Below the pieces are notes generated by a model, which saw only the letters and a list, made by a program, of their open reading frames with translations, was not told where the DNA came from and did not search any database. From positions 1 to 23,506 of the forward strand of contig JAMPAW010000042.1 of assembly GCA_023666975.1 (NCBI GenBank): a stretch of DNA of 23,506 nucleotides, written 5' to 3'. This document shows positions 1 to 13,367 of this stretch, in pieces. How positions within the stretch are numbered: the stretch's first letter is position 1; each line of letters opens with the position of its first letter. This DNA is from Clostridium sp. (GTDB lineage Bacteria > Bacillota_A > Clostridia > Lachnospirales > Lachnospiraceae). A program made the position numbers and the translations under genes.

Positions 1-336
1 GGTGCCAAAAAACGGCACCTAAGTACCAACGGCTCCAAAGCACCTGCTTATGATATTTGTCTATATTGTACAACTGAACTTTGAAGATTGGAGTTTCACA
101 ATTGCCTATTATAGTATAGTGGAACGGAGAGAAATGTCAAGTGATGGATTAGCCGGATGGAAATGCAGCCTGATTTGAGCGGCAGGTTTTATACTAGTTA
201 ACCTTAGTATTTGCCTTCGGCAAATGCTTAGTTTAACTGCATATACCGTGGTGAAATGTTGGATTCGGCAATCAATTTCGTTCGCGAGTATAATCCGCAG
301 AAAAATACAGGGAGGATTTACAGGGAGGACTGACAG
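1..336. other. Non-coding left edge and leader of the DUF389 gene
   Basis: No convincing gene is seen here. Frame 1 is open from the window edge to a TGA at 82-84, which could be the last 27 codons of a gene lying outside, but nothing in it is recognisable. A short hairpin GGTGCC/GGCACC lies at 1-19. A weak promoter candidate for the rightward gene is TTGGAG (88-93), 16 bp, TATAGT (110-115). A strong hairpin (196-238) follows, described separately. The stretch ends with the ribosome site GGGAGG at 323-328. Confidence 0.5.
196..238 (+). promoter_or_regulatory. Two-tier hairpin in the 5' leader of the DUF389 gene
   Basis: An inner stem GTATTTGCC (207-215) pairs with GGCAAATGC (219-227) around a three-base TTC loop, with one G:T pair. 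An outer stem AGTTAA (196-201) pairs with TTAACT (233-238) after a small internal loop. No T-run follows, so it does not look like a simple intrinsic terminator. It lies about 100 bases upstream of the GTG start at 337. It matches no riboswitch class I know; it may be a structured leader or a remnant of a terminator for an upstream gene. Confidence 0.5.
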
Positions 337-8320: not shown

Positions 8321-8393
8321 GCTGGCGTGGCACAGTCGGTAGCGCACCTCATTGGTAGTGAGGAGGTCACGGGTTCGATTCCCGTCGCTAGCT
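8321..8393 (+). tRNA. tRNA-Thr (anticodon GGT)
   Basis: A 73-base cloverleaf is visible. The acceptor arms GCTGGCG and CGCTAGC pair over seven positions with one G:T. The anticodon stem CCTCA/TGAGG encloses the loop TTGGTAG, giving anticodon GGT for threonine. The T arm is ACGGG-TTCGATT-CCCGT. The 3' CCA is not encoded. No repeat of the tRNA 3' end was found elsewhere in the window, so it is not obviously an occupied integration site. Confidence 0.95.
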
Positions 8394-8475: not shown

Positions 8476-8504
8476 TTGACAATGTATATACTATTGTATA
8501 TACT
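8476..8504 (+). promoter_or_regulatory. mazEF promoter with two tandem palindromic boxes
   Basis: TTGACA (8476-8481), 17 bp, TATACT (8499-8504). Two identical self-complementary boxes GTATATAC occur at 8484-8491 and 8496-8503, twelve bases apart, in the spacer and over the -10 hexamer. Toxin-antitoxin operons of this type are autorepressed by antitoxin and complex, so these boxes are the natural operator candidates. Confidence 0.75.
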
Positions 8505-8529
8505 GAATTGTAGGAAAGGAGATGATTTT

Positions 8530-8775
8530 ATGCAGGCAACAATTCAGAAATGGGGGAATTCACAAGGGATAAGAATACCAAAAGCATTTCTGGAAGCATT
8601 GGGAATGATGGAAAACGATCTGGTGGAACTTAACAGGGTTGATGACAATATTGTGATTACGAAAGTGAAAAAGGAAAAAGAAATTACTTTAGAAGATATA
8701 TTCAAAGACTATGATGGAGAATGTATCACTGAGGAATTTGATTGGGGTTCGCCTGTTGGAAAGGAAGTGTGGTAA
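8530..8775 (+). CDS. mazE: Antitoxin MazE (AbrB-like)
   Basis: This 81-residue protein is the labile antitoxin that binds and blocks MazF and represses its own promoter. Residues 2-46 are an AbrB/MazE swapped-hairpin DNA-binding domain with the diagnostic KWGNSQGIRIPK; the acidic C-terminus ends EFDWGSPVGKEVW, typical of the segment that occupies the toxin groove. The start is the ATG at 8530, after AGGAAAGGAG; an upstream ATG at 8476 lies inside the promoter. The stop TAA overlaps the mazF ATG by one base, so translation is coupled. Confidence 0.92.
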   Translation: MQATIQKWGNSQGIRIPKAFLEALGMMENDLVELNRVDDNIVITKVKKEKEITLEDIFKDYDGECITEEFDWGSPVGKEVW

Positions 8776-9101
8776 TGTACAATCCGAAGCGAGGTGATAT
8801 AGTATTTTTAGATTTTAGCCCACAATCTGGACATGAGCAAGCAGGAAGAAGACCAGGTGTAATTATCAGTAATGAGCAGTTTTTTATAAGAACTAAATTT
8901 GCGGTGGTGTGCCCAATCACAAATACAAGTAATAAATTTCCACTGCATATTCCATTAGACAATAGAACAAAAACAACAGGTGTAATATTGACAGAACATA
9001 TGAAGTGTTTGGATGTTATCAGTAGACATGTTCAGTTTGTTGAAAAAATGCCAGAAGATTTATTGGATAAGACATTGGCATATGTAAAAGCATTTTTCTA
9101 A
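8775..9101 (+). CDS. mazF: mRNA interferase toxin MazF
   Basis: This 108-residue protein is a PemK/MazF-family endoribonuclease that cuts single-stranded mRNA at short sequences and arrests growth. The family signatures are PKRGDIVFLDFSPQSGHEQAGRRPGVIIS, with the conserved Arg pair in GRRP, then VCPITNTSNKFPLHIPLD and the C-terminal ILTEHMKCLDV, which holds the second conserved region. Start ATG is in the TAATG overlap with mazE. Its stop codon overlaps by four bases the stop of a converging gene on the other strand. The gene appears more AT-rich than the surrounding housekeeping genes, consistent with acquisition. The cleavage sequence cannot be predicted. Confidence 0.93.
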   Translation: MYNPKRGDIVFLDFSPQSGHEQAGRRPGVIISNEQFFIRTKFAVVCPITNTSNKFPLHIPLDNRTKTTGVILTEHMKCLDVISRHVQFVEKMPEDLLDKTLAYVKAFF

Positions 9102-9826
9102 TAGCAAACCTTACATGCCCTCGGCTTTGGGCAATCCGATACAGAACCACTGTATATTGTGCGTGAACGGCTCAAGGTTGGGCAATTTCTCGTTTTGTGG
9201 TATACAGACCCATTTGGAGTCCAATATACGGTTCCGCCGGCTGTGCTGTGATTCGAGGTTGTTTTCTTTTTGGCAGATACGGTTATTTTGCATGTTGCCT
9301 TCTTGCCGGACGCCAGTATAACAGAAATCTTTGCGGTACCGCAGCTTTTAGCTTTGATTTTACCGCTTTTTGATACTGTGGCCACTTTCTTATTGCTTGA
9401 TTGGCACTTTTTAATCGAGTCTCCTTTGGCATACTTTACTTTTAAGGTGTAAGTCTTGGATTCCTGTATTTTAATCGTCTTTTTAGAAAGTTTAATATAT
9501 GGTTTCAGCTGAGGAATTATCTCTGTCTGCGTTTCATCACAAACAAAGCATTCGTGCTCTCTTAGACCGGTTTCGGAGATGGTTGCCGCTTCTGTTACAT
9601 ACCAGTCGTCCCATTCATGTTCACCGGTAGCGGGGATATCGGCATATTCCTTTTCATCACAGTTCGAGCAATATCGTTCCTGTTTTCCGGGTTCGCCACA
9701 GGTGGGTTCAATATAGGTTTCCCAAGAACTCCAAATGTGATTACAAGTACTTTCTGCAAATACCTGTGGTGGAAAACAAGACAATGCTAAAGTAATAATT
9801 AGAAAATGAAAAATACCTTTCTTCAT
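9098..9826 (-). CDS. Secreted Cys/Trp-repeat protein with Big2-like domain and Cys-rich C-terminal module
   Basis: Residues 1-24 form a signal peptide ending in VFA. Residues 28-105 contain two copies of a module of the form H-x-W-x2-W ... T ... G ... C-x2-C ... IP ... G (for example CNHIWSSWETY and EHEWDDWYV). Residues about 108-184 resemble a bacterial Ig-like group 2 domain, with KLSKKTIKIQESKTYTL and KKVATVSKSGKIKAKSCGTAKI. The last 45 residues hold VYWTPNGSVYHKTRNCPTL and ACKVCY, a Cys/His module like those found attached to secreted clostridial nucleases and other exported proteins. The protein is probably extracellular; its function is unknown. The start follows GGGAGG with seven bases spacing and there is a consensus promoter upstream. 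It converges on mazF. Confidence 0.8.
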   Translation of the reverse strand: MKKGIFHFLIITLALSCFPPQVFAESTCNHIWSSWETYIEPTCGEPGKQERYCSNCDEKEYADIPATGEHEWDDWYVTEAATISETGLREHECFVCDETQTEIIPQLKPYIKLSKKTIKIQESKTYTLKVKYAKGDSIKKCQSSNKKVATVSKSGKIKAKSCGTAKISVILASGKKATCKITVSAKKKTTSNHSTAGGTVYWTPNGSVYHKTRNCPTLSRSRTIYSGSVSDCPKPRACKVCY

Positions 9827-9857
9827 TTTGTGTCCTCCCGATCGTTTTCTTTGTTAA

Positions 9858-9886
9858 ATTATACGATAAACTTCTACATTAGTCAA
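9858..9886 (-). promoter_or_regulatory. Promoter of the secreted protein gene
   Basis: On the minus strand TTGACT (9886-9881) and a perfect TATAAT (9863-9858) are separated by 17 bp, starting about 25 bases before the ribosome site of the gene at 9826. It lies just after the stop of the upstream small gene, so the two can be expressed independently. Confidence 0.85.
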
Positions 9887-9891
9887 GATGC

Positions 9892-10062
9892 CTATGATAT
9901 TTCCGCATCTTTACATTGTTTTCCGTCTGGATAGCCGTTTCCTTGTAAGTCCGTAGTCTCGGATAGAGGAGAGTTTTTGGCTTTTCCTTTATCCGGACGC
10001 TCGCTTTCCCACACACCCTTAGGCATGGTCTCTACAGGTTTCTTTTTATCTGTCAATTTCAT
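9892..10062 (-). CDS. Small hydrophilic protein of 56 residues
   Basis: The minus strand has GGAGG followed after ten bases by ATG (10062-10060) and 56 codons to TAG at 9894-9892. The product begins MKLTDKKKPVETMPKGVW and has one Cys, one Trp, many Lys, Asp, Glu and Pro, and no hydrophobic segment, so it is soluble and probably poorly folded. I do not recognise a family. Codon usage resembles the neighbours and a strong ribosome site supports expression. It precedes the secreted protein gene on the same strand. It is below the usual length cut-off and is easily missed. Confidence 0.6.
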   Translation of the reverse strand: MKLTDKKKPVETMPKGVWESERPDKGKAKNSPLSETTDLQGNGYPDGKQCKDAEIS

Positions 10063-10156
10063 AAAATTTATACCTCCATGTTTTCAATATATGTTAAAAA
10101 TAGTATGTCGATTTTTTCGGGAAATATGAATTTTTAATGACAATTTTTTCAATGAT

Positions 10157-10185
10157 TTGATTATTCTTATTTTTTGTTGTATGAT
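10157..10185 (+). promoter_or_regulatory. Promoter of the membrane protein-sigH operon
   Basis: TTGATT (10157-10162) and TATGAT (10180-10185) are separated by 17 bp. The start would be near 10192, giving a leader of about 150 bases that includes the inverted-repeat element. This SigA-type match is good but not perfect. Confidence 0.65.
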
Positions 10186-10204
10186 GAAGAAGAGTAAGCT
10201 GGTA

Positions 10205-10286
10205 ATGGTAATTAGTCATGCGCAAAACTCTGTTTTCTCAACTGACCGTTGTACAATAGTGAGTTTTGCGCATGACTAAATGGTAA
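10205..10286. repeat. MITE-like element: 68 bp with 19-bp perfect inverted repeats and 7-bp flanking duplication
   Basis: The left arm TTAGTCATGCGCAAAACTC (10212-10230) and its exact reverse complement (10261-10279) enclose 30 bases. The outer ends abut identical direct repeats ATGGTAA (10205-10211 and 10280-10286), which extend to eight bases if one shared A is counted. Exact terminal repeats plus a flanking duplication are the signature of a transposed miniature element. It encodes nothing and has no T-run, so it is not a terminator. It sits about 20 bases after the predicted transcription start of the sigH operon, where its RNA would fold into a 19-bp hairpin. No second copy is visible in the window and no family can be named. 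Confidence 0.75.
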
Positions 10287-10315
10287 CACGTGTGGAGGTA
10301 GCACAGGAAGGAAGA

Positions 10316-10332
10316 ACTGCCCGTTTGGCAGT
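10316..10332 (+). promoter_or_regulatory. Hairpin between a strong Shine-Dalgarno and the start codon
   Basis: ACTGCC (10316-10321) pairs perfectly with GGCAGT (10327-10332) around CGTTT. It follows GGAAGGAAG (10307-10315) directly and precedes the ATG at 10344 by 11 bases. Without folding, the purine-rich site is too far (about 28 bases) from the start; folding would bring it to about 11. The only nearer site is a weak GAGA. Confidence 0.45.
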
Positions 10333-10343
10333 AACGAGATATT

Positions 10344-10958
10344 ATGGACAAGAATTCAAATAACACGGAAGAATTTGATATTATTGATTTTGATTTAAAT
10401 GAATTTGACGAGGAGTTTGAGAAAGAGGAAGAAAAACGCAAATTAAAAGAGCAAAAGAAGATTGCGGCCGCAAGGTCCAGAGCGGAGCGCGTCGGGCAGC
10501 AGGCAGGGCGGAACCGGCAGGATAATCGGATTATGCCTAACCGTGATATGCTGAAGACAATTTTGTTGATATTGACGGTTATTGTGATTGCGTGTCTGTT
10601 TCTGGGTGTGATTACGTTTATTGTAAATAACGCAGGCGGAGGAAACTCCTCGCAAAAAAAGAACCGGAACCGGGTGAGTACGGAGGAGGCCGCTACCGAC
10701 GGGCGTTTTTCCGGTTCGGATACGGATAAAGCCACAGAAGCCGGAGATGAGCAAAAGCAGAGAAATGAGGAAAAACAGAAACTGGAAGACAGTATTGATG
10801 AAATCACCAACAAGGTGCGAGATGATGTGAATACACAGCCGACGACGCAGGAGAGGACGACCACAGAGAATACAACAGAGGCGACGACGGAGGCAGTGAC
10901 AGAGGTACAGGAAGAAGTTCCGACAGAGAGTGATGTATACGCTCAGCCGGAAGAATAG
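10344..10958 (+). CDS. Single-pass membrane protein encoded upstream of sigH
   Basis: The 204-residue product has an acidic N-terminus (residues 8-30), a basic helical part (31-67, rich in Lys, Arg and Gln), one membrane segment (about 72-94) and an outer part that is low in complexity. The outer part has a charged helix (about 132-162) and a Thr/Glu-rich tail with TTEATTEAVTE. With no signal-peptidase site, an N-in, C-out topology is likely. I do not recognise a family. The stop is 15 bases before sigH, so the two form an operon, which suggests but does not show a membrane-anchored role connected with SigH. An in-frame stop at 10332 rules out a longer start. Confidence 0.75.
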   Translation: MDKNSNNTEEFDIIDFDLNEFDEEFEKEEEKRKLKEQKKIAAARSRAERVGQQAGRNRQDNRIMPNRDMLKTILLILTVIVIACLFLGVITFIVNNAGGGNSSQKKNRNRVSTEEAATDGRFSGSDTDKATEAGDEQKQRNEEKQKLEDSIDEITNKVRDDVNTQPTTQERTTTENTTEATTEAVTEVQEEVPTESDVYAQPEE

Positions 10959-10973
10959 AAAACGGAGAGTCTA

Positions 10974-11573
10974 ATGGATTACAGACAGTGCAGCGATGAG
11001 GAAATCATTGCGTTGATTCGACAGGGCAATGAGGAGGCAATTGAATATCTTTTGAAAAAATATTCCCCATTGGTCAAAAAATCAATCCGTACCCTGTATC
11101 TGATTGGCGCAGATACGGAAGATTTATCCCAGGAGGGAATGATTGGGCTGTTTAAGGCAATCCAGAACTATCAGGGAGATAACTCTGCTTCTTTTTATAC
11201 CTTTGCAAAGATTTGTATTGACCGGCAGATTTATACGGCGATTAAGGCGTCCAATCGCAAAAAGCATTCCCCGCTCAATTCGTATATATCCTTTTATAGC
11301 AGAATGAATGAGGAAGAGGCTGAACTGATTGAGAATCTGGAGGCGGGAAATGAGTCTAATCCGGAGCATGTCGTGCTGGACCGTGAAAACACCATGCATA
11401 TTGAAGGACTGCTGCAGGAGCATCTTAGCAAAATGGAAAAAGAGGTGCTTTCTCTGTATTTGGAGGGAAGAGCATATGCGGATATAGCGCAGACGCTTGG
11501 AAAACCGATAAAATCAGTTGACAATGCTGTGCAGAGGATTCGGGATAAAGTGAAAAGATTGTATGTGAGGTAA
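10974..11573 (+). CDS. sigH: RNA polymerase sigma factor SigH (Spo0H type)
   Basis: SigH is the sigma-70-class factor of stationary phase and sporulation onset. The 199 residues include region 2 (about 17-90), with the -10-recognising LIGADTEDLSQEGMIGLFKAI and SFYTFAKICIDRQIYTAIKASNRKKHSPLNSY, very like Bacillus SigH, and region 4 (about 145-195), with the helix-turn-helix EGRAYADIAQTLGKPIKSVDNAVQRIR. The ATG follows GGAGAG. Location downstream of rlmB agrees with the Bacillus order, where sigH follows yacP. Other Clostridia SigH are similar in length. The main uncertainty is whether it serves sporulation in this organism. Confidence 0.88.
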   Translation: MDYRQCSDEEIIALIRQGNEEAIEYLLKKYSPLVKKSIRTLYLIGADTEDLSQEGMIGLFKAIQNYQGDNSASFYTFAKICIDRQIYTAIKASNRKKHSPLNSYISFYSRMNEEEAELIENLEAGNESNPEHVVLDRENTMHIEGLLQEHLSKMEKEVLSLYLEGRAYADIAQTLGKPIKSVDNAVQRIRDKVKRLYVR

Positions 11574-11624
11574 CCGGAATATATCGAAGAGCGTTTTTAT
11601 ACATGAACAAAATGATGGCTTTCA

Positions 11625-11653
11625 TTGACGTAAATTGCTAAATATGTTAAAGT
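11625..11653 (+). promoter_or_regulatory. Promoter of glnS
   Basis: TTGACG (11625-11630), 17 bp, TAAAGT (11648-11653). The start would be near 11660, giving a leader of about 43 bases; no T-box is present. Confidence 0.7.
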
Positions 11654-11702
11654 AGTTAAGACAGCAAATATTTTAGGACGAGACGTAAAAGGAGTCAGCA
11701 TA

Positions 11703-13367
11703 ATGGAAAGCGAAACAGTATCTAAGAATTTTATCGAACAGATTATTGATAAAGACATAGAAGAGGGGAAATATAACAAAATTGTCACCCGGTTTCCACC
11801 GGAACCTAACGGTTATTTACATATTGGACATGCAAAGTCCATTCTTTTAAATTCTGGTCTGGCAAAGGAGTATAACGGAAAGTTTAATCTTCGCTTTGAC
11901 GATACCAATCCGATGAAGGAAAAATCTGAGTATGTACAATCGATATTAGATGATGTAAAATGGTTAGGAGCAGACTTTGGAGATAAGGTTTATTATGCAT
12001 CGGATTATTTTGACGCAATGTATGAAGGTGCGGTTAAGCTGATTAAAAAAGGCAAAGCGTTTGTCTGCGACCTGACGGCTGAAGAAATCCGTGAGTATCG
12101 CGGAACGCTGAAGGAGCCGGGGAAGGAAAGCCCTTACCGCAACCGCAGTGTTGAGGAGAATCTGGATTTATTTGAAAGAATGAAAAACGGTGAATTCCCG
12201 GACGGTACAAAGGTTTTGCGGGCCAAAATTGATATGGCTTCGCCGAATATCAATATGCGTGACCCGGTCATTTACCGTATTGCCAGAATAACACATCATA
12301 ACACCGGAGATAAATGGTGCATTTATCCGATGTATGATTTTGCGCATCCGATAGAGGACGCTGTAGAGGGAGTGACACATTCCATTTGCACGTTGGAATT
12401 TGAGGATCACAGGCCTTTGTATGACTGGGTGGTCAGGGAATTGGAATTTGAATTTCCACCTAAACAGATTGAATTTGCAAAGCTGTATCTGCAAAATGTC
12501 ATTACCGGTAAGCGGTATATCAAGAAATTGGTTGAGGACGGAGTAGTGGACGGCTGGGACGACCCAAGGCTGGTTTCCATTAGTGCACTCCGGCGGAGAG
12601 GGGTAACGCAGGAAGCGATACAGATGTTTATGCAGCTGTCAGGCGTTTCTAAGGCGAATTCCGTTTCGGATATGGCTATGCTGGAATATTGTATCCGGGA
12701 AGACTTGAGAATGAAAGCCAAACGTATGATGGCAGTTCTCGATCCGGTTAAGCTGGTGATTGACAATTATCCGGAAGGTGAATCAGAACTTTTGGAAGTA
12801 GAGAACAATCAGGAGAATGAGGCACTGGGAGTACGGCAGGTATCTTTTGGCAGAGAATTGTATATTGAGCGGGAGGATTTTATGGAAGAACCTCCAAAGA
12901 AATATTTTCGTCTGTTTCCCGGTAATGAGGTGAGATTGAAAAATGCGTATTTTGTTACCTGTACAGACTTTGTAAAAGATGAAAACGGACGAGTTGTCGA
13001 GGTACATTGTACTTATGACCCGGCGACAAGATCGGGTTCCGGTTTTGAGGGGCGCAAGGTGAAAGGGACTATTCACTGGGTGGATGCTGCTACTGCGGTA
13101 GACTCAACGGTCAGATTGTATGAGAATCTGATTCAGGACGGTGACGAGGAATTAAAAGAGGATTATTCTAATCTGAACCCCAATTCTTTAGTGGAGATGA
13201 AGAACTGCAAGCTGGAGGCTGCATTTGCGGGAACAGGCAAGGGGATACATTTTCAGTTTTTAAGAAATGGATTTTTCTGCACGGATATAAAGGATTCCAC
13301 GGAGGACAAGCTGGTGTTTAACCGGGTTGTATCACTGAAGAGTTCATATCGTCCGAAGAAGGATTAG
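11703..13367 (+). CDS. glnS: Glutaminyl-tRNA synthetase
   Basis: This 554-residue class I synthetase charges tRNA-Gln directly. HIGH is exact at 40-43 ([15 protein letters not shown]), FDDTNP follows, and the C-terminal anticodon beta-barrels include [11 protein letters not shown] and KVKGTIHW. The second signature, MSKR in most GlnRS, reads TGKR (268-271; [12 protein letters not shown]), and the usual WDDPRMPT reads WDDPRLVS. Length and the rest are normal, so a working but divergent enzyme is likely. Most Firmicutes make Gln-tRNA by the GatCAB route and lack GlnRS; its presence fits Lachnospiraceae and relatives. The start follows AAAGGAG. A GluRS is less likely because of the RRRG and barrel sequences. 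Confidence 0.92.

Follow-up and report, generated by a model that had tools for sequence, protein, structure and literature searches.

A 68-bp palindrome in a sigH-operon leader as a probable MITE of a high-copy Lachnospiraceae family

Introduction

It is well known that MITEs are moved by insertion sequences with similar ends, as set out in the passages drawn on here (PMC10969869; PMC3049150). Section 3.3 of the review PMC10969869, the portion used in this work, describes MITEs as normally intergenic and names no preference for ribosome sites. According to the excerpts cited here, Correia elements lie predominantly immediately upstream of genes (PMC10969869) and pneumococcal repeats are found in excess between convergent genes (PMC3049150). 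IS1272, an insertion sequence of the IS1182 family, has been reported, in the part of the study cited here, to replace inverted repeats (PMC5678879).

In the present study, we analysed a 23,506-nt contig of Clostridium sp. (Lachnospiraceae; GCA_023666975.1, JAMPAW010000042.1). The whole of this stretch is referred to as the window. A preliminary description had pointed to a MITE-like palindrome in the leader of its sigH operon, and the locus was compared here with related genomes, partner insertion sequences and the systems mentioned above.

Structure of the palindrome and its surroundings

The perfect 19-bp arms, the 30-bp centre and the ATGGTAA abutting both ends that had been reported earlier were all exact in the sequence (Table 1): the arms are complementary at 19/19 positions and the centre measures 30 nt. 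The flanking repeat can also be written as the 8-mer AATGGTAA (10204-10211 and 10279-10286). At the family boundary TAG...CTA the flanks read AATGGTAAT and AATGGTAAC and are identical at 8/9 positions; shifting the boundary by one base gives the 7/7 repeat. Elsewhere in the window no second match to the palindrome was found within 3 mismatches, and the shuffles gave 0/100. The predicted fold reached -34.4 kcal/mol; the mean for 200 shuffles was -15.0 (z -6.3). A chance palindrome was ruled out by the 0/100 shuffles and this z value. Thus far the element has the properties by which MITEs are recognised, being short and non-coding (68 bp) with terminal inverted repeats (19/19) and having a target-site duplication, ATGGTAA, at either end.

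As for the surroundings, the window holds a tRNA gene at 8321-8393, which is its sole Rfam match, a pair of a MazE-like antitoxin and a PemK/MazF-like toxin at 8476-9101, and, on the minus strand at 9098-9826, a protein with a Big_2 Ig-like domain, located upstream of the sigH-operon leader and divergent from it.

Table 1. Features of the window and insertion sequences with family-type ends
Feature	Positions in window	Strand	Remarks
Truncated copy of ~211-bp type-1 element	1-108	.	ends in GAGTTTCACAATTGCCTA; cut by contig start
Promoter TTGATT-N17-TATGAT	10157-10185	+	
Target repeat ATGGTAA, left copy	10205-10211	+	
MITE-like element, 68 bp	10212-10279	.	family boundary TAG...CTA = 10213-10278
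Left terminal inverted repeat	10212-10230	+	type 2; TTAGTCATGCGCAAAACTC
AATA, then 33-bp L291 block absent	10255-10258	+	alignment to L291
Right terminal inverted repeat	10261-10279	-	perfect complement of left
Target repeat ATGGTAA, right copy	10280-10286	+	
GGAGG	10294-10298	+	15 bp past element end; family GGAG mostly 17-21 bp
First gene of presumed operon, 204 aa	10344-10958	+	64 bp after element
sigH	10974-11573	+	
L267, insertion sequence, 1796 bp			viral contig; frame 485 aa; type 1; flanking repeat 10/11
L269, insertion sequence, 1767 bp			viral contig; frame 507 aa; type 1; flanking repeat none seen
L281, insertion sequence, 1770 bp			intact, in G307; type 1; exact 11-bp repeat TCATTTTAACC
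L357, 1557 bp			viral contig; type-2 ends; exact 10-bp repeat TAAAATTTCA

A high-copy family in related genomes

Searching for the arm elsewhere in its exact form, as the preliminary description had proposed, was unsuccessful: the 18-mer of the window arm had zero matches in 84,980 species genomes. This was at first counted against a repeat, until the sister genome G001 reversed it. When up to 3 mismatches were allowed, G001 showed two arm matches facing each other across 209 bp, and the element so delimited gave 76 aligned pieces within G001, several of them per copy. The main family end TAGRTRATTGCGAAACTC was matched 104 times in this genome (52 forward and 52 reverse, up to 3 mismatches) against 6 matches (3 + 3) for the reversed-pattern control. 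A similar element was present in 31 of the 144 relatives searched. In 11 further genomes, picked from these 31 relatives already known to hold the element, the end was matched 16-146 times each within 2 mismatches, and the controls 1-5 times. The window contig itself carries one further family copy, of the longer type and truncated, in which window bases 1-108 match the last half of the longer family element. Other short forms of about 50-99 bp also exist. Multiple related copies at different sites and with differing flanking repeats, mostly of 8-12 bp, as expected of a MITE, were thereby found in G001 and the relatives.

The 211-bp element had no match among plasmids and one partial match, of 73 bases, among phages, and window positions 9400-12400 matched neither plasmids nor phages. 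An Rfam search on six element loci returned one match, far below the gathering score and outside the element. Matches to a 17-mer of the arm in 20 viral contigs were rejected, being one conserved, unrelated sequence without the palindrome.

The long elements (L164 1501-1711 and relatives) are predicted to fold as hairpins over nearly their entire length, with three copies giving -76 to -104 kcal/mol. Many distant matches to the long element are confined to its inner part, about positions 64-134, and no Rfam family matches it.

Two kinds of ends were distinguished in the family, type 1 close to TAGGTAATTGCGAAACTC and type 2 close to TAGCCATGAGCAAAACTC; the window end, TAGTCATGCGCAAAACTC, is type 2. 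Type-2 ends occurred in six of the 11 genomes (G319 24, G189 12, G001 7, G307 4, G316 2, G314 1), with 0 matches in the 11 genomes for the reversed-pattern control. Among the copies found, the one closest to the window element was L291, a 99-bp copy from another species (G319), which agreed with it at 58/66 positions (39/46 plus 19/20); the centres agreed at 23/28, a value reached by 0/20,000 shuffles. A 33-bp block of L291, itself ending in AATA, is missing from the window copy directly after the window's own AATA, and a deletion between short repeats would account for the 68-bp size, judging from this alignment.

Flanking repeats were scored, as length minus 3 per mismatch, in 104 paired elements including that of the window, a non-random sample with a few doubtful pairs. 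A score of at least 7 was obtained by 54/104 elements, compared with 30/19,822 pairings of flanks from different elements. At a score of at least 6, 56/96 type-1 elements had repeats, which were 7 to 16 bp long and usually 10-12 bp, and 6/8 type-2 elements had repeats of 8 to 10 bp. The window element scores 6 at the family boundary (8/9) and is therefore not among the 54 elements that reached 7. Its exact repeat of 7 bp is shorter than the 10-12 bp usual for type 1, and its 8/9 repeat falls within the 8-10-bp range of the six scored type-2 copies. Two elements, L129 (G001:C20) and L167 (G319:C1), have near-identical flanks and the same 10-bp repeat ATTTATTTTT; they are one old insertion common to two species, so that the family copies are not all independent.

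Partner insertion sequences and their transposases

Insertion sequences with family-type ends were about 1.56-1.80 kb long and encoded DUF772/DDE transposases (Table 1). Exact type-1 ends occurred in four viral contigs, two of which hold insertion sequences (L267 and L269). The type-2-ended L357 shares 91% identity with the 427-aa frame of L275, which is one end of an L357-like element in G307, cut by the contig. L268, which was also found by an exact end, had no true second end and was set aside. Insertion sequences that pair an open transposase frame with the same kind of ends, as the MITE proposal foresaw, do exist in these genomes and contigs: L357 has type-2 ends, L275 retains one such end, and L281, L267 and L269 have ends of type 1.

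DUF772 was present in all four transposases tested (L267, L269, L275 and L281). DDE_Tnp_1 was above the cut-off in L269 and L275 and below it in L281, and L267 had a related DDE domain below the cut-off. Against the NCBIfam profile for IS1182, NF033551, the scores were 68.4 (L267), 69.1 (L269), 98.7 (L275) and 70.8 bits (L281); the cut-off is 270 bits, and these enzymes are therefore relatives of the IS1182 family and not members of it. Replacement of a palindrome with no duplication, as for IS1272, was not seen either, the elements being flanked by direct repeats of 10 bp (L357), 11 bp (L281) and 14 bp (the pCY360 copy).

Relatives of the type-1 transposase numbered at least 3,582 among 7,998 candidates scored, with Blautia and Lachnospiraceae names among the matches listed, and were found on three plasmids, from Butyrivibrio, Roseburia and Agathobacter (pieces only in the last). 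Among 12 genomes, one (G307) had the type-1 transposase at full length, four had fragments and seven, including G001, had none. A PF01609 profile search of six genomes gave matches in three and none in G001. In the draft G001, no transposase of the DUF772/DDE kind was found, and none was recognised by eye in the frames beside nine G001 loci with mostly unpaired ends.

On plasmid pCY360 of B. proteoclasticus (L358, 63845-65314), two type-1 insertion sequences lie in tandem; the 14-bp repeat CATTTATTTATAAA separates the copies and recurs after them, and their transposase gene is missing from the gene table shown.

Position of the elements before gene starts

In 76 of the first 89 paired copies, one flank contained, no more than 200 bp away, a start codon accompanied by a Shine-Dalgarno (SD)-like motif and an open frame. 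The start codon lay 24-36 bp from the element end in 60 copies (60/89 overall and 60/76 of those with a start), compared with 3.6% of 13,571 trials at random positions in the same loci, a control that includes coding DNA and whose distances spread wide whereas the observed ones peak. An SD-like motif began 11-21 bp from the element in 81/104 elements, and the other 11-bp bins up to 109 bp held 7 to 19; several of the 21/104 elements with no motif at 11-21 bp had a near variant. GGAG occurred 62 times at offsets 13-22, mostly at 17-21, against a mean of 0.69 for each of the offsets 30-55. For the truncated copy at 1-108, GGAG lies at 126-129 (offset 17), and three of the insertion sequences fit the same placement, with GGAGG at 17 bp (L357), AAAGGAG at about 14 bp (L281) and GGAGG at 19 bp (L269).

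We think it fairly probable that this group of Lachnospiraceae insertion sequences and their MITEs choose targets by a GGAG at a nearly fixed 17-21 bp, which would guide them into the stretch that separates the promoter from the ribosome site and would have placed portable RNA hairpins in the leaders of many genes in each genome, the window's sigH operon included. The alternative, that the element is a MITE and its distance to GGAG and start codon arose by post-insertion selection or by co-option of leader hairpins, is possible and appears to us the weaker of the two. Selection would remove copies inside genes, and 71 of the 86 flanks with a motif belong to real gene starts (a start codon 20-45 bp away and a frame of at least 50 codons), so that motif and ribosome site are indistinguishable in most copies. 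However, mere tolerance would not confine the distance so narrowly, because sites further upstream would be equally harmless and 60/76 starts fall at 24-36 bp. Moreover, L267 lies inside an open frame with a coding AAGGAG at 17 bp, a single case, and the GGAGG of the window is followed by no start codon at the usual distance. The window is one of the remaining 15/86 motif flanks, some of which are the far side of an element with its gene opposite; in L115 the start codon, at 46 bp, misses the 20-45 bp limit by a base. Taken together, a DNA motif is a likelier cue than the ribosome site, with selection against gene-disrupting insertions certainly contributing to the pattern.

Under target choice by GGAG, a transposase of the DUF772/DDE_Tnp_1 kind acting on type-2 ends would make a staggered cut of 8-10 bp in the target, immediately before a GGAG-type motif, and the element would be pasted in, the promoter staying upstream and the translation signals downstream. 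If so, an element that reads a pre-gene motif avoids breaking genes, yet alters many leaders at once, and insertion would systematically supply new 5' leaders across a large family of gut bacteria.

The sigH operon and the identity of the element

The sigH product passed the NCBIfam model NF006148 (216.8 bits, cut-off 208) and failed TIGR02859 (208.7 bits, cut-off 294.8). The window SigH protein was found in its own contig alone, and its nearest relatives were 96% and 94% identical, the latter lying on contig L021 of G001. The operon promoter is intact in the window, and 14 relatives out of 17 examined (L021-L037) have it as well. L021 is not one of the 14: its contig sets in at the site's right edge, and elsewhere in G001 the promoter gave no match. 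The element begins 26 bp downstream of the -10 box and would thus lie early in the operon mRNA. The position first described, just after the predicted start of the transcript carrying sigH, is refined in that the gene starting at 10344 comes first in the presumed operon and sigH follows at 10974.

None of the 14 relatives in which the promoter was found carries a family element in this leader, as the MITE proposal predicted. Together with the family copies, their differing flanking repeats and the same-ended transposases, these 14 leaders support the MITE proposal, and we conclude with high confidence that the feature is a MITE, namely one shortened by internal deletion from a longer, hairpin-shaped element of a high-copy Lachnospiraceae family. 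That it is instead a native regulatory hairpin of the sigH leader (an attenuator, a protein site or an mRNA stabiliser) with a coincidental flanking repeat is very unlikely. Its leader does belong to a regulatory operon and its fold is strong, and one of the 14 relatives, L024, of another species, carries in roughly this position (G307:C65:164456-164503) another hairpin, whose arms measure 13 bp and which has one copy in its own genome and none in three other genomes. However, this hairpin of the window was seen in 0/14 readable leaders, and its sequence is a member of a multi-copy family. An intrinsic terminator or attenuator, for which the strong stem within the leader might speak, is highly improbable: a U-tract directly behind the stem is absent on both strands, and a terminator scan reported no terminator-like site at the element. 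Spread via RNA and reverse transcription could produce duplications of varying length like the 7-16 bp seen here, but it is just as remote, given the existence of DDE-type transposases whose elements share these inverted ends and have duplications of 10-14 bp.

For a MITE inserted at this point, with the promoter upstream and the translation signals downstream, the operon mRNA would start with about 20 nt and then the hairpin. Because no U-tract follows the stem, no termination is expected and the effect would be modest at most, possibly on mRNA stability or RNase processing. We expect the predicted hairpin to have little effect on sigH, and the window element is most likely a selfish passenger.

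A second, small hairpin appears to lie at window positions 10307-10346, separating the AAAGGA-type SD motif from the start ATG of the operon's first gene (CTGCCCGTTTGGCAG); its sequence varies at this place in relatives L021-L036. A script found an AAAGGA-type motif before the first gene in 13/18 sequences. In 5 of these 13 (the window, L021, L026, L028 and L035) the hairpin was matched by at most 13/500 shuffles, and in the other 8/13 it was not so distinguished. In L021 (706-1502), the first gene and sigH are set apart by roughly 800 additional bases that contain an open frame; in the window the two genes are adjacent.

Comparison with known systems

The transposases share with the IS1182 family a distant similarity (68-99 bits, NF033551) and the DUF772 domain. 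Unlike IS1272, as characterised in the part of the report cited above (PMC5678879), the partner insertion sequences are flanked by 10-14-bp target repeats and do not replace inverted repeats. Over its whole length the L281 transposase is 79.8% identical to that of an unnamed insertion sequence on pCY360 of Butyrivibrio proteoclasticus and 67.6% identical to that of another unnamed one on a plasmid of Roseburia sp. 831b. Both of these are full insertion sequences and have ends of type 1, not of type 2 like the window element. Among the open-licence literature matches listed, and as far as their text was available, none tied an insertion sequence or MITE to GGAG or a Shine-Dalgarno motif at a fixed distance, and none described this group with 8-14-bp duplications.

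For the finding itself the consequence is modest, in that the sigH-operon leader of one uncultured species bears an extra hairpin. The family resembles the RUP, BOX, SPRITE, ERIC and Correia MITEs: all are short, form hairpins, occur in many copies and have inverted ends, with target repeats, no gene of their own and movement by a similar-ended insertion sequence. The window element is in this respect an ordinary member of the MITEs moved by insertion sequences. In contrast to pneumococcal repeats and typical MITEs, the family copies mostly end about 30 bp before a start codon, and the nearest parallel for this placement, within the portions of the literature used here, is provided by the Correia elements.
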